Shown here piece by piece: positions 2,111 to 15,641 of a DNA stretch of 34,402 bases. Below the pieces are notes generated by a model. The model was not told the origin of the DNA. It did no database searches and saw only the letters and a program-made list of their open reading frames with translations. Made by a program: the position numbers and the translations under genes. Numbering within the stretch: the stretch's first letter is position 1; each line of letters starts with the position of its first letter. The stretch covers positions 1 to 34,402 of IMG/VR virus record IMGVR_UViG_3300035670_000767. One strand, 5' to 3'. The DNA comes from a virus.

Positions 2111-2513
2111 TTTGTACCTCTGACACAATATCAGCTATATCAGGATAGCTTTTAACAGGCTCTTTCTTACGTCTGTTTATCCAGTAAAGTAACCTATTCA
2201 TACCACCAACAATCTTAACTTGTTCACTGTCGTTGTTACACCAACTACACATTTTAACAGGTAGATAAGCGATTCCTGCCTGAGCTGGCACACAGCCACA
2301 GTTAGTACACTGGGCAAAACCTGTCCACATAGGTGGCACTATGCCTTTCTGTAAGGCTAGTGTTATCTGGCAGTCAACGATTGAGTCAGGTGTTAGCTTA
2401 TAGCCTTCAGATTTCAGCATCTTCTTGGCTATTGGGGCTAAGTCTTTAAACTGCTTTTTTCTTAAATCCATTAATGATTTATATTTTTTTTCAAAAGAAT
2501 ACGCTTCTGTCAT
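2091..2513 (-). CDS. zinc-ribbon protein of the replication operon (140 aa)
   Basis: The middle carries CTNCGCVPAQ and, about 16 residues on, MCSWCNN: a CxxC...CxxC zinc-ribbon pair. The N-terminal half is a Lys-rich helical region; a basic NRRKK stretch follows the ribbon. It overlaps the upstream helicase gene by 23 bases, so it is co-translated with it and probably serves replication, perhaps as a DNA-binding or primase-accessory protein; this role is inferred from context alone. No catalytic primase motif is visible. Confidence 0.65.
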   Translation of the reverse strand: MTEAYSFEKKYKSLMDLRKKQFKDLAPIAKKMLKSEGYKLTPDSIVDCQITLALQKGIVPPMWTGFAQCTNCGCVPAQAGIAYLPVKMCSWCNNDSEQVKIVGGMNRLLYWINRRKKEPVKSYPDIADIVSEVQIKTACK

Positions 2514-3363
2514 CGTCTTTTTTTCCTCTAAATTCCTTTAAACTTTCCTCTTTTTTTGCTCGTCTTTTTTCTTCCTCATCTGCGACAGTAGAATAAAACC
2601 ACTCAATGTCATCATCTCCTTTAGGCCTGATTTCTATCTGAATTGGTTCTAATACTGATGGATCTTTTGGGCTTAAACATCTGGTTTTTTCAAAATGAAA
2701 CTCGAACACAGTCCCATCTGTAATTTTCCAGTTATCAGGCCGTCTAAGCTGAATAACAATATCAAGAGGGTCTTCTATATCGCTTATTCCTCTTTGCTTC
2801 CCCTCCTTGCCTGAATGATGCACGATTAAAACGCTTATACGCCTTTCCTTGAGGCTAATCAGCCAGTCCCTAAGCTTACCATAGGCTGTCCTGAAATCTT
2901 CCCTTCCTGACGGTTTACAGGCTGCTGATAGGTTATCTATAACCAAGAGCTTAGTATCGCCTATAATGTCATCCATCATCTTCTGACAATCCCTGTCTGC
3001 TAGGTTCCATGTAACACCACCCATATTTTCAAATGTAAACAACCTCACGCCATTTCTTTGAAGCCTAAACATGGCAGCCCTATTAATCATGGCGAACCTT
3101 TCAGTTAGTGCCTGCCTGCCCATCTCGCAATCAAAATATAAAACATTCTCAATGTTAGTTGACCACTTCAGGAAAGGACTGTTTGTAGCTACCGCCTGAG
3201 ACAATCCAAGGCTAAAAAACGTCTTTCCTATACCTCGCCATGAGTGAATCATGCATAAACTTCCCTGCTCCATCCATGGGTCAATAACAAAAGACTTCTC
3301 AGGAAACTCAACCTCGTTTAAATCAACCCAATCATGAGGGGGTTCTGTCATTTTCCAGTTCAT
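2491..3363 (-). CDS. RepA-like hexameric replicative helicase (AAA_25 ATPase)
   Basis: A 290-residue RecA-fold ATPase of the RepA/AAA_25 type found in phages and plasmids. Walker A is SWRGIGKTFF near residues 41-50, with Ser where Gly or Ala is usual in the first position. The acidic strand VLYFDCEM follows near residue 78, Walker B is KLLVIDNLSA near residue 140, and the conserved C-terminal block VLIVHHSGKEGKQRG then SDIEDPLDIVIQL matches the family's sensor and arginine-finger region. It would unwind DNA at the origin after loading by the upstream initiator gene, with which it overlaps by four bases (ATGA). It overlaps the zinc-ribbon gene downstream. Confidence 0.87.
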   Translation of the reverse strand: MNWKMTEPPHDWVDLNEVEFPEKSFVIDPWMEQGSLCMIHSWRGIGKTFFSLGLSQAVATNSPFLKWSTNIENVLYFDCEMGRQALTERFAMINRAAMFRLQRNGVRLFTFENMGGVTWNLADRDCQKMMDDIIGDTKLLVIDNLSAACKPSGREDFRTAYGKLRDWLISLKERRISVLIVHHSGKEGKQRGISDIEDPLDIVIQLRRPDNWKITDGTVFEFHFEKTRCLSPKDPSVLEPIQIEIRPKGDDDIEWFYSTVADEEEKRRAKKEESLKEFRGKKDDDRSVFF

Positions 3364-4166
3364 TTAACCTCTCTGATTAGGCTCTTATTGCCGATGTAGA
3401 AATAACCCCATTCTGCGTCAATCCCTTCGCCTAATAACCACCTATTACCCTTTCCGATCTCCCTGTTCCTCCAGTTCATAATCGTTCTGGCGTGGCATTT
3501 GAGTTCCTTAAACTCTTTTGGCTTTCTTTCAGCATAATCGTTTAACTGGTCAATCCAATAATAAACCTCCTGTTCGTTCTTACACTTTTTGCCTATGGCT
3601 GCGATTTGAGAGCTAGTCATCCATACGACACCACCACGATTGATAAGAGGTTCTTTAAATCTTGATAGGTGTTTAGGAGCATCTGGCGAGTTATCCTGAG
3701 GTTCGGTTTTAATGAGTTCTAACTGAGGTGCTACTGTGTGTATAGTATTCTTATCTTTCTTATCTATTCTTAGTTGTGCTCGTTTGATGCTCGTTTGATG
3801 CTCGTTTAGATGCTCGGTTTGGTGCTCGCTCTCTTTTTCTGGACTCTGATATCTTTCATAATTACAGATAGTTATAAGGCTATACTGGGTGCTCGTTTGA
3901 TGCTCGATTTGTTGTACCGTTTTCAAACCATTTAGAAAACGTTGTACTTTGGCTCTCGACCACTTCCACCTCTTCGCTAATTTAACCTGAGAAGTCATAA
4001 ACTGGCCCCTCTTTATGAGCACTGGCACTGAATCAATAAACAGCTCTTTATCTTTCCAATTTGCATGTAGTAGCATGTCAACCCATGCCTGACCCTTTGA
4101 GAATGTTCCCGATATCCAACATGAGCTTGTAAGTAGGTTTCTTGATAGTTTGATATAATTAGACAT
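3360..4166 (-). CDS. O-like replication initiator with winged-helix N-terminus (268 aa)
   Basis: The N-terminal 100 residues (SRNLLTSSCW, AWVDMLLHANW, then RGQFMTSQVKLAKRWKWSRA and KVQRFLNGL) match the winged-helix domain of phage replisome organisers and O-like initiators. Residues about 85-130 contain a repeated EHQT/HQTS pattern encoded by DNA repeats that look like origin iterons (3777-3911), as in lambda O. The C-terminal part is basic and likely contacts the helicase encoded immediately downstream. No Shine-Dalgarno site is visible before the ATG; the promoter at 4271-4300 probably drives it through a leader of about 100 nt. Confidence 0.8.
   Translation of the reverse strand: MSNYIKLSRNLLTSSCWISGTFSKGQAWVDMLLHANWKDKELFIDSVPVLIKRGQFMTSQVKLAKRWKWSRAKVQRFLNGLKTVQQIEHQTSTQYSLITICNYERYQSPEKESEHQTEHLNEHQTSIKRAQLRIDKKDKNTIHTVAPQLELIKTEPQDNSPDAPKHLSRFKEPLINRGGVVWMTSSQIAAIGKKCKNEQEVYYWIDQLNDYAERKPKEFKELKCHARTIMNWRNREIGKGNRWLLGEGIDAEWGYFYIGNKSLIREVK
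3736..3911. other. candidate origin of replication: iterons plus AT-rich stretch
   Basis: Seven copies of a TGCTCG-headed unit start at 3777, 3788, 3799, 3811, 3823, 3890 and 3901. The best three read TGCTCGTTTGA and the spacing is 11-12 bases, about one helical turn. Next to the cluster, 3736-3775 is AT-rich with strong purine/pyrimidine bias, suitable for melting. The arrangement inside an initiator gene, iterons then AT-rich DNA along the coding strand, is that of the lambda O gene. Origin function is inferred. Confidence 0.6.
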
Positions 4167-6173: not shown

Positions 6174-6202
6174 ATAATATATTGCTTATTCAAATTTATC
6201 AA
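6174..6202 (-). promoter_or_regulatory. strong sigma70-like promoter of the HTH operon
   Basis: On the minus strand TTGATA (6202-6197) and TATTAT (6179-6174) are separated by exactly 17 bases. Both are five-of-six matches. Transcription would begin at or next to the ATG at 6167. Confidence 0.65.
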
Positions 6203-6210
6203 GATATATT
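6182..6210 (+). promoter_or_regulatory. sigma70-like promoter of the recombination operon
   Basis: TTGCTT (6182-6187) and TATATT (6205-6210) have a 17-base spacer. The promoter overlaps the minus-strand promoter at 6174-6202 almost completely, so RNA polymerase cannot occupy both at once. A leader with TTCGGGAGA follows. Confidence 0.6.
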
Positions 6211-6238
6211 AAAACTTATCTATTTCGGGAGAATAAAT

Positions 6239-7159
6239 ATGGCTAAAATTCTAATTGACAACATCACATTTGAACCGGGCAAAGAGGCTTTCGAGCGTCT
6301 GCATGGTAAGAGTAACTATCTTGGCAGCTCTGAGATTGCAGTAGTCGCAGGGCTGAACAGGTTTCAGACACCCTTGCAGCTATGGATGAAAAAGACTGGC
6401 AGGGATACATCTACTGTCGATAACTGGGCTGTCTATGTAGGCAACCTATTAGAGCCTGTAGTTGGTCAGATGTTTGAGAAGAAACATCCTGAGTACTCAC
6501 TATTAAAAAACTACACTGTATATTCTCATGACACTATTGAGTGGGCAACATGCACTCAGGATTATAACCTTAGCTATCCGACATCATCTTCTGTCGAGAG
6601 CATATTAGAGATAAAGACTTCTGGCATCTGGGCTAAACAAGAGTGGGACAATGGAGAGGTTCCAGACTTTGCGCTCTGTCAGCTACAATGGCAGCTTGGA
6701 ATATTAGGCCATCCATACGGTTATTTAGCTGCCCTGATAGGAGGTAAAGAATACTTTGATAAGGAGGTCAAGTTTAGTCCAGATGCCTTTTCTCAGCTTG
6801 TAGAGCTAGGCGAAAAGTTCCTATCTCTTGTTAAGTCAGACACGCCACCTGATGCAAACTTTGCTGATGATTTAAGCTTTATCAGGCCGACAGTTAAATC
6901 GGTTGAGCTTAATTGCAGAGATTTACTTGATGAGTATCAGATCTTAACCGATGAAATTAAAAGACAAGAAGACATAACAAAGCTCAAACAGCAGGCAAGG
7001 GATACAATCAAAAACAAAATCATTCAGCTTATGGGTGATGCAGGTGAAGGTAAGTGCGGAGATTATCTTGTCACTCGAAAAGTTGTGCCGATTAAGGAAT
7101 CGCTAAGAAAAGCATATGAGCAAATAAGATTTAGTATTAAGACTTTAAAGGAGAAATAA
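6239..7159 (+). CDS. YqaJ/lambda-type exonuclease, viral recombinase
   Basis: A PD-(D/E)xK nuclease of the YqaJ family that would resect double-strand ends for single-strand annealing with the RecT protein at 14838. With the ATG at 6239 the protein has 306 residues. Motifs: YLGSSEIAVVAGL near residue 27-39, GNLLEPVVGQMFEKK with E near 72, CTQDY with the metal-binding D near 108, ILEIKTS with E near 124 and K near 126, and QLQWQLGILG near 150. An in-frame start 57 bases upstream lies inside the promoter and is rejected; the ATG at 6239 has a CGGGAGA site. A hydrophilic coiled region forms the C-terminus. Confidence 0.9.
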   Translation: MAKILIDNITFEPGKEAFERLHGKSNYLGSSEIAVVAGLNRFQTPLQLWMKKTGRDTSTVDNWAVYVGNLLEPVVGQMFEKKHPEYSLLKNYTVYSHDTIEWATCTQDYNLSYPTSSSVESILEIKTSGIWAKQEWDNGEVPDFALCQLQWQLGILGHPYGYLAALIGGKEYFDKEVKFSPDAFSQLVELGEKFLSLVKSDTPPDANFADDLSFIRPTVKSVELNCRDLLDEYQILTDEIKRQEDITKLKQQARDTIKNKIIQLMGDAGEGKCGDYLVTRKVVPIKESLRKAYEQIRFSIKTLKEK

Positions 7160-13838: not shown

Positions 13839-14008
13839 TAGATTCTGGCTTTGGCGATGGCTGTGGCTTTGGCTCTGGCGATGGCTCTGGCGATGGCTCT
13901 GGCGATGGCTGTGGCTTTGGCTTTGGCGATGGCTGTGGCGATGGCTCTGGCGATGGCTGTGGCTTTGGCTTTGGCGATGGCTGTGGCGTAACTATTTTGG
14001 AGGATTAG
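13826..14008 (+). CDS. Gly/Asp/Cys-rich hexapeptide-like repeat protein (60 aa)
   Basis: Between a short start (VSVID) and end (VTILED) the protein is a run of two-residue steps, Gly followed by Asp, Cys, Phe or Ser, with 23 units encoded by GGCNNT hexamers. The ATG has GGAG nine bases upstream inside the DUF6948 gene, and the stop is followed by GGAGG for the next gene, favouring this frame. The overlapping frames would encode all-hydrophobic and Trp/Leu/Arg repeats. The low-complexity product may be a disordered or metal-binding tail; function unknown. Confidence 0.5.
   Translation: MVSVIDSGFGDGCGFGSGDGSGDGSGDGCGFGFGDGCGDGSGDGCGFGFGDGCGVTILED
13847..13984. repeat. 23-copy GGCNNT hexamer repeat
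   Basis: Twenty-three uninterrupted hexamers of the form GGC-GAT, GGC-TCT, GGC-TGT or GGC-TTT. Order within the run repeats larger blocks such as GAT-TGT and TGT-TTT-TTT-GAT, indicating growth by unequal exchange. All three forward frames stay open across it. Confidence 0.9.
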
Positions 14009-14837: not shown

Positions 14838-15641
14838 ATGAGTAATTCAAATTCAGAACTATCAAATAAACTTGTCGCTCAGGGCGCTTCGATTAAGCCT
14901 AGTAGCTTTGTTGGTATAATGAAGCCTTGGTATGAAAATAGGCAGCAAAATATTGCAGACCTCTGCGGGAGTGCTGAGGATGCAAAGAGGCTTTACGTTG
15001 CAGCCATGAGCTATATCAGCAACAGGCCAGAGCTGATGAAATGTGAGCCAAAGAGTTTGCAACAATGCATCATGCAAAGTGCGACACTGAACCTGCATCC
15101 GGGCGTACTAAACGAGGCTGATTATCTTTGTTTCAAAGGTAAGGCTACTTTTGTCTGTGGTTATCAGGGGCTAATTAAGCTTGCAATCCAGAGTGGTATT
15201 GTCTCTGACATATCATCTAATGTTGTGTACGCAGCAGATGTCTTTGACTATCAGGAAGGCTCGAACGCTTTTATCAAGCACAAAAAGTTTCTTGGTAGCA
15301 GGAAAGATAGAGGTGAAAGGGTATGCGTGTATGCAATCGCCAATATGGTTGCAGGAGGGGTAAAGTTTGTCCTATTAACGCCAGAGGAGGTTCTATCTAT
15401 CAAGAACAAATCTATGGCTAAAAATAGCTCTTATAGCCCTTGGAATAGTGACGTAGACAATGAAGACGAAATGTGGAAAAAGACAGCGATCAAGAGATTA
15501 TCTAAGCTACTACCAAAGTCCACAAAGGCACTAAACTTTGCAAAGGCAGTAGCTCTTGATAATGCTGCTGAAAGTCCAGACGATAAGGACGCTTCGCTCT
15601 TGATGCCAGTGTTCGATGAATCAGAGTTTTTAGAGGAGTAA
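14838..15641 (+). CDS. RecT family single-strand annealing protein
   Basis: The family landmarks are present in order: residues about 55-85 PELMKCEPKSLQQCIMQSAT, LHPGVLNEADYL, FVCGYQGLIKLAIQSG near 95, the VFDYQEGSNAF region, and the C-terminal MWKKTAIKRLSKLLPKS. RecT anneals complementary strands after 5'-3' resection by a partner exonuclease, here the YqaJ nuclease at 6239. The pair is normally adjacent but here is separated by over 7 kb. Length 267 is normal. The acidic C-terminus ends with EFLEE. Confidence 0.92.
   Translation: MSNSNSELSNKLVAQGASIKPSSFVGIMKPWYENRQQNIADLCGSAEDAKRLYVAAMSYISNRPELMKCEPKSLQQCIMQSATLNLHPGVLNEADYLCFKGKATFVCGYQGLIKLAIQSGIVSDISSNVVYAADVFDYQEGSNAFIKHKKFLGSRKDRGERVCVYAIANMVAGGVKFVLLTPEEVLSIKNKSMAKNSSYSPWNSDVDNEDEMWKKTAIKRLSKLLPKSTKALNFAKAVALDNAAESPDDKDASLLMPVFDESEFLEE

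Follow-up and report, generated by a model that had tools for sequence, protein, structure and literature searches.

A cluster of short direct repeats in a virus record of 34,402 bases (IMG/VR IMGVR_UViG_3300035670_000767, positions 1-34,402; hereafter the window) is very probably a phage replication origin that lies inside its initiator's own gene, next to the gene of a RepA-like helicase. The evidence comprises the array itself, a geometry conserved among relatives, selection at the level of the DNA, an A-rich flank, and the co-variation of iteron and recognition helix. Gene-embedded iteron origins as such are an already known kind of system.

The iteron array and its host gene

The features of the proposed origin and its two genes are all on the minus strand of the window:

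3360-4166, minus strand: gene of the initiator P0001 (268 aa), DnaD-like phage helicase loader family, phrog_2514
3947-3968, minus strand: encodes residues 67-73 of the stretch WSRAKVQR (67-74), with which the recognition helix begins; best co-variation with the iteron
3890-3911, minus strand: second iteron group, a pair of units at 11-bp spacing (hexamer starts 3901 and 3890)
3777-3833, minus strand: main iteron array, five direct CGAGCA units; spacing 12-12-11-11 in gene order, same geometry in relatives
3737-3776, minus strand: A/purine-rich, strand-biased block adjoining the array; 75% A+T, repeats of the GATAAGAATA type
2491-3363, minus strand: next gene, P0002 (290 aa), AAA_25 P-loop ATPase of the RepA-helicase type (E 5.4e-22)

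The seven TGCTCG units described in the initial annotation are all present, with plus-strand starts at 3777, 3788, 3799, 3811, 3823, 3890 and 3901. Their spacing is about one helical turn, as had been proposed: the intervals are 11, 11, 12, 12, 67 and 11 on the plus strand, and in gene order 11, then 67, then 12, 12, 11 and 11. On the coding strand the unit reads CGAGCA, and all seven copies lie inside the initiator gene. The division into five and two units with a 56-base gap (3834-3889) is right if a unit is counted as 11 bases; the second group precedes the main array by 67 bp in gene order, and its codons form part of the winged-helix wing. Window-wide the hexamer TGCTCG is not enriched (17 found, 12.9 expected), and 7 of the 17 fall within 130 bp. 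Within the initiator gene CGAGCA occurs 7 times, against a mean of 1.4 and a maximum of 5 in 500 synonymous shuffles, and the longest chain of one hexamer has five members, compared with at most three in 2,000 dinucleotide shuffles and at most four in 2,000 synonymous shuffles. That the units encode EHQT repeats is true in part only: four of the seven give EHxx (EHQT, EHQT, EHLN and EHQT), whereas the remaining three fall in the two other frames and give T-S-T, T-S-I-K and R-A-Q. Because some of the spacings are 11, which is no multiple of three, the units run through all three reading frames. A DnaA box was not found near the window array.

The stretch adjoining the array had been described as AT-rich and strand-biased. 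Positions 3737-3776 are indeed 75% A+T, the coding strand being rich in A and purines, and a 9-10-bp repeat, TATTCTTATC, occupies 3746-3772. An AT-rich element next to the repeats is a feature of gene-embedded iteron origins, and this block is a candidate strand-opening element. GC skew, suggested as a check, was of no help in placing the origin: a broad minimum spans about 3.5-6.5 kb, and the skew is uninformative because it tracks gene direction.

The N-terminal half of P0001 (residues 1-142) matches phrog_2514 with E 1.3e-26 in a profile search, which assigns the protein to that family; a second match of the N-terminal half is to phrog_186 (E 2.6e-16). The earlier description as an O-like protein is refined here: by profile match P0001 is a DnaD-like phage initiator and no homologue of lambda O. 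Its best matches are DnaD-like loader families, and the lambda O family is absent among its Pfam matches. In the AlphaFold2 model the N-domain (residues 1-108) is a winged helix (pLDDT about 97) with the recognition helix at 71-83 and the wing at 87-100; residues 118-181 are predicted to be a disordered linker, which takes in most residues encoded by the array and the A-rich block, and helices are predicted across residues 185-257. The solved folds nearest to this model are Crp-type winged helices (Z 8.7), and the initiator domain 4pt7 scores Z 7.0 over residues 1-102. Such scores reflect a common fold and not kinship; a search for kin closer than a Crp-like winged helix gave no fold match above the common winged-helix level. 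By sequence, neither P0001 nor P0002 has a convincing match among PDB chains, and the RepA_N profile (PF06970) has no match in the window or in the records of nine relatives at E up to 1.

A C-terminal DnaD/DnaB_2 domain is seen in the relative L216; none is recognised in P0001, although helices are predicted there. The part of the protein after the array varies among L216, L002, L009, L041 and P0001, the domain being recognised in L216 alone of these five. It looks as if the DNA-binding half and the origin formed one module that is joined to host-specific second halves.

The gene of P0002 overlaps the initiator gene by four bases, and P0002-like phage proteins carry annotations such as helicase RepA family or primase/helicase. 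Judged by these resemblances, P0002 is likely to be the replicative helicase that is recruited; its structure model was too poor for fold comparison. Elsewhere in the window, and far from each other on the plus strand, are genes for a RecE-like exonuclease (6182-7159; phrog_434, E 1.2e-52) and a RecT-like annealing protein (14838-15641; phrog_148, E 3.9e-51). Also on the plus strand, at 13846-13988, a 12-bp unit is repeated in tandem and forms a higher-order unit of 48 bp (about 12 copies; at period 48 the match is 96%); the open frame that contains it reads LWLWRWLW.

Geometry and DNA-level selection among relatives

Relatives were drawn from virus contigs and bacterial genomes, and the DNA was taken around TICNYERYQ, a conserved motif that closes the N-domain. 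At least three identical hexamers in a chain occur in the 170 nt after this motif in 100 of 111 distinct genes, against 4.8 after dinucleotide shuffling; of 331 spacings in this set 155 are 11 and 112 are 12, while none is 10 or 13. In a non-redundant set of 107 genes (N-domain identity at most 80%), 45 genes have chains of at least five units and the spacing is 11 bp in 158 instances; synonymous shuffling lowers these counts to 0.7 and 7. Most of these 107 relatives carry an array of their own iteron in the same place and with 11/12-bp spacing; in about a tenth of them a clear array is missing. Control coding windows from the same loci had chains of at least five in 4 of 433 cases, and no 11-bp-spaced chain in any of the 433.

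The order of the spacings also is shared. Fitted with any step from 9 to 14 allowed, 84 good arrays gave 12-12-11-11 as the best order in 27, 11-11-11-11 in 15 and 12-12-12-12 in 12. There is a tendency for 12 in the first two steps and for 11 in the final two, and the window array has the commonest order. Upstream of the array, units on the same strand lie mostly 66-68, 78-79 and 90 bp before it (82 genes): 58 of the 82 have at least one such unit and 31 have two or more, compared with 29.6 and 5.8 after synonymous shuffling, while a match on the opposite strand was found in 1 of the 82. The sequence of the unit varies from phage to phage (CGGACA, GGGACA, CGACGC, ACAACA, GAAACGC and others). 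As expected, because the iterons are phage-specific, a scan of viral contigs for the exact three-unit pattern gave no match; direct DNA similarity searches against phage records returned almost none. DnaA boxes were considered as a part of the design and dropped, with 2 found near arrays in 82 genes.

Past the last unit, the coding strand of 82 relatives is rich in A and purines for 40 bp, with A+T above the gene mean by 14 points in the first 20 bp and by 21 points in the second. Many relatives also have a short hairpin 25-75 nt past the array (52, against 8.7 after synonymous shuffles), with a stem of 6-9 bp and often a 4-nt loop such as TAAC or TAAA (for instance L006, L063, L128 and L258); in these origins it may act as a signal for priming or loading, or as an RNA signal. 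The window has no hairpin past its array, and therefore none is claimed for its origin.

Selection at the DNA level is apparent from codon usage. Among 204 pairs of relatives, synonymous codon differences at conserved residues amount to 15.8% inside the array and 39.0% outside it, and the value inside is the lower one in 175 of the 204 pairs, which are not independent of each other. The pair L004/L025 has 0 of 15 synonymous differences inside and 63 of 186 outside, and the pair L040/L043 has 0 of 17 and 54 of 214. Relatives that kept the protein repeat while synonymous changes destroyed the DNA repeat would have spoken against the origin; the comparison did not turn out that way. The earlier view of the protein repeat as a by-product of the DNA repeat stands, because the relatives keep array and geometry while repeat sequence and peptide change. 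Direct repeats under DNA-level selection within the initiator gene are a feature of gene-embedded iteron origins.

Co-variation of iteron and recognition helix

If the protein binds the repeats, iteron and recognition helix are expected to co-vary. In a comparison across 104 genes, the stretch of eight residues that best accounts for iteron similarity is the window WSRAKVQR (67-74), where the recognition helix begins. With overall N-domain similarity allowed for, its partial correlation is 0.30, against a median of 0.05 for all windows, and it also leads among pairs below 45% identity. The value was reached in 0 of 2,000 permutations, a test that ignores phylogeny, and for this reason more weight lies on how the windows compare with one another. 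Helix and iteron pair as follows: SPSAVERFL with ACCGGACA, SKSxVDRFL with CGGGACA, DKSKVRRFL with GAAACGCA, SLGKVQRFL with CGATAC and, in the window, SRAKVQRFL with CGAGCA. Residues 85-92 (IEHQTSTQ) also co-vary with the iteron, but as the upstream units encode them this is circular and was left out of the evidence.

We lean towards a wider reading, in which a large initiator family, spanning Staphylococcus, Vibrio, alphaproteobacterial, Bacteroidales and other phages and prophages, bears its own origin on one blueprint: two units, then, with the groups 66-68 bp apart, some five units in the order 12-12-11-11, followed by an A-rich block and in many cases a hairpin. Iteron and recognition helix would change together, so that the system becomes readable from sequence alone. 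If true, origin and cognate initiator could be located in this way in many uncultured phages; the paired helix and iteron sequences would offer natural material for deriving a code of protein-DNA recognition, and the same pairs would inform on origin incompatibility between phages. Repetitive, seemingly meaningless initiator peptides (EHQTEHLNEHQT and the like) would then be origin DNA read as protein, and the fixed 12-12-11-11 order raises a structural question, namely the phasing of the bound proteins on the helix. A description of the 11/12-bp blueprint or of the helix-iteron match was not found in the open-access literature that was searched; both look undescribed there, their novelty being uncertain.

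The proposed origin, its alternatives and known systems

That the site acts as an origin, and that the protein binds and wraps it, opens the strands and loads the helicase, we infer from the protein families and their precedents. The N-domain of P0001, a predicted winged helix, would bind the seven direct iterons (2 + 5), all in one orientation; with the iterons about one helical turn apart, the bound subunits would line up along the DNA and wrap it, and the wrapping would strain the adjoining A/purine-rich block until it opens. The C-terminal region, tethered via the flexible linker that the array itself encodes, may then bring the RepA-like helicase of the next gene onto the open strand.

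The same protein might instead bind its own gene to block transcription or to limit its own synthesis, with the origin elsewhere. Its Crp-like winged-helix fold and the clustered sites would suit a repressor, and binding would not in itself prove origin function. The sites, however, lie 260-390 bp inside the gene and not at a promoter, they are followed by the conserved A-rich block, and both the protein family and the neighbour belong to replication; we consider an operator without an origin unlikely, and the two functions may coexist. Very unlikely, and rejected here, is that the repeats are a low-complexity linker at the protein level or a minisatellite made by slippage, devoid of function as DNA. 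The two separate groups share one orientation, the units pass through every frame, synonymous shuffles destroy the arrays, synonymous change is depressed within them, and control coding windows of the same loci are free of 11-bp chains; these points outweigh the predicted disorder of the array-encoded segment and the capacity of slippage to create tandem repeats, of which the window has another at 13846-13988.

A partition site (centromere) like tubC can be entertained since TubR, which is among the weak fold matches of P0001, is a winged helix that wraps helically around split direct-repeat blocks (PMC5016525). In that type III partition system tubC lies upstream of the tubR-tubZ operon (PMC5016525), whereas the repeats here are inside a gene of a helicase-loader family with a helicase-like downstream neighbour; the layout is a different one, and judged by it this reading appears extremely improbable. 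An origin within the initiator gene remains the preferred reading, and TubR/tubC, with its winged helix on split direct-repeat blocks and wrapping along the DNA (PMC5016525) and with another function and gene layout, is a mechanical analogy only.

Several replication systems are closer. In phage 80alpha, ORF20 (SPP1 G38P-like) is not complementable in trans and is therefore thought to carry the origin (PMC5499656); it resembles our case as an initiator gene thought to hold an origin, but the protein is another one, and as a shared example it was discarded, having no 11/12-bp direct array and 15-bp, AT-rich sequences as its longest repeats. In lambda and the Stx phages, iterons and an AT-rich tract lie inside O, and extra iterons lengthen the protein (PMC7466680). 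The placement of both elements within the initiator gene is common to O and P0001; lambda O, however, belongs to another protein family, the lambda-type origins have four to six longer iterons in place of the 11/12-bp units, and the partner is a P-like loader rather than a helicase-like ATPase.

Rep of plasmid pSK41 (RepA_N) is, as much as lambda O, the best experimental analogue. Its Rep boxes are central in rep, and the linker that they encode is dispensable (PMC5703833). The two systems are alike in a DNA-binding N-domain of DnaD-like structure (PMC5703833; fold match 4pt7, residues 1-102), in repeats at mid-gene, and in a linker as the protein part encoded by the origin. They differ in that pSK41 has four Rep boxes, against direct 11/12-bp units in 2 + 5 here, and is a staphylococcal plasmid, against a phage in which the next gene codes for a likely helicase and a PF06970 match is absent. 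Among the phage DnaD-like loaders (phrog_2514/phrog_186), in which iteron sequence, unit number and C-terminal domains vary between phages, orf46 of Staphylococcus phage PVL has an N-domain of the same family, seven ACATCA units at exact 11-bp spacing with one more about 68 bp upstream, and an AAT/GAT-rich stretch after the units.
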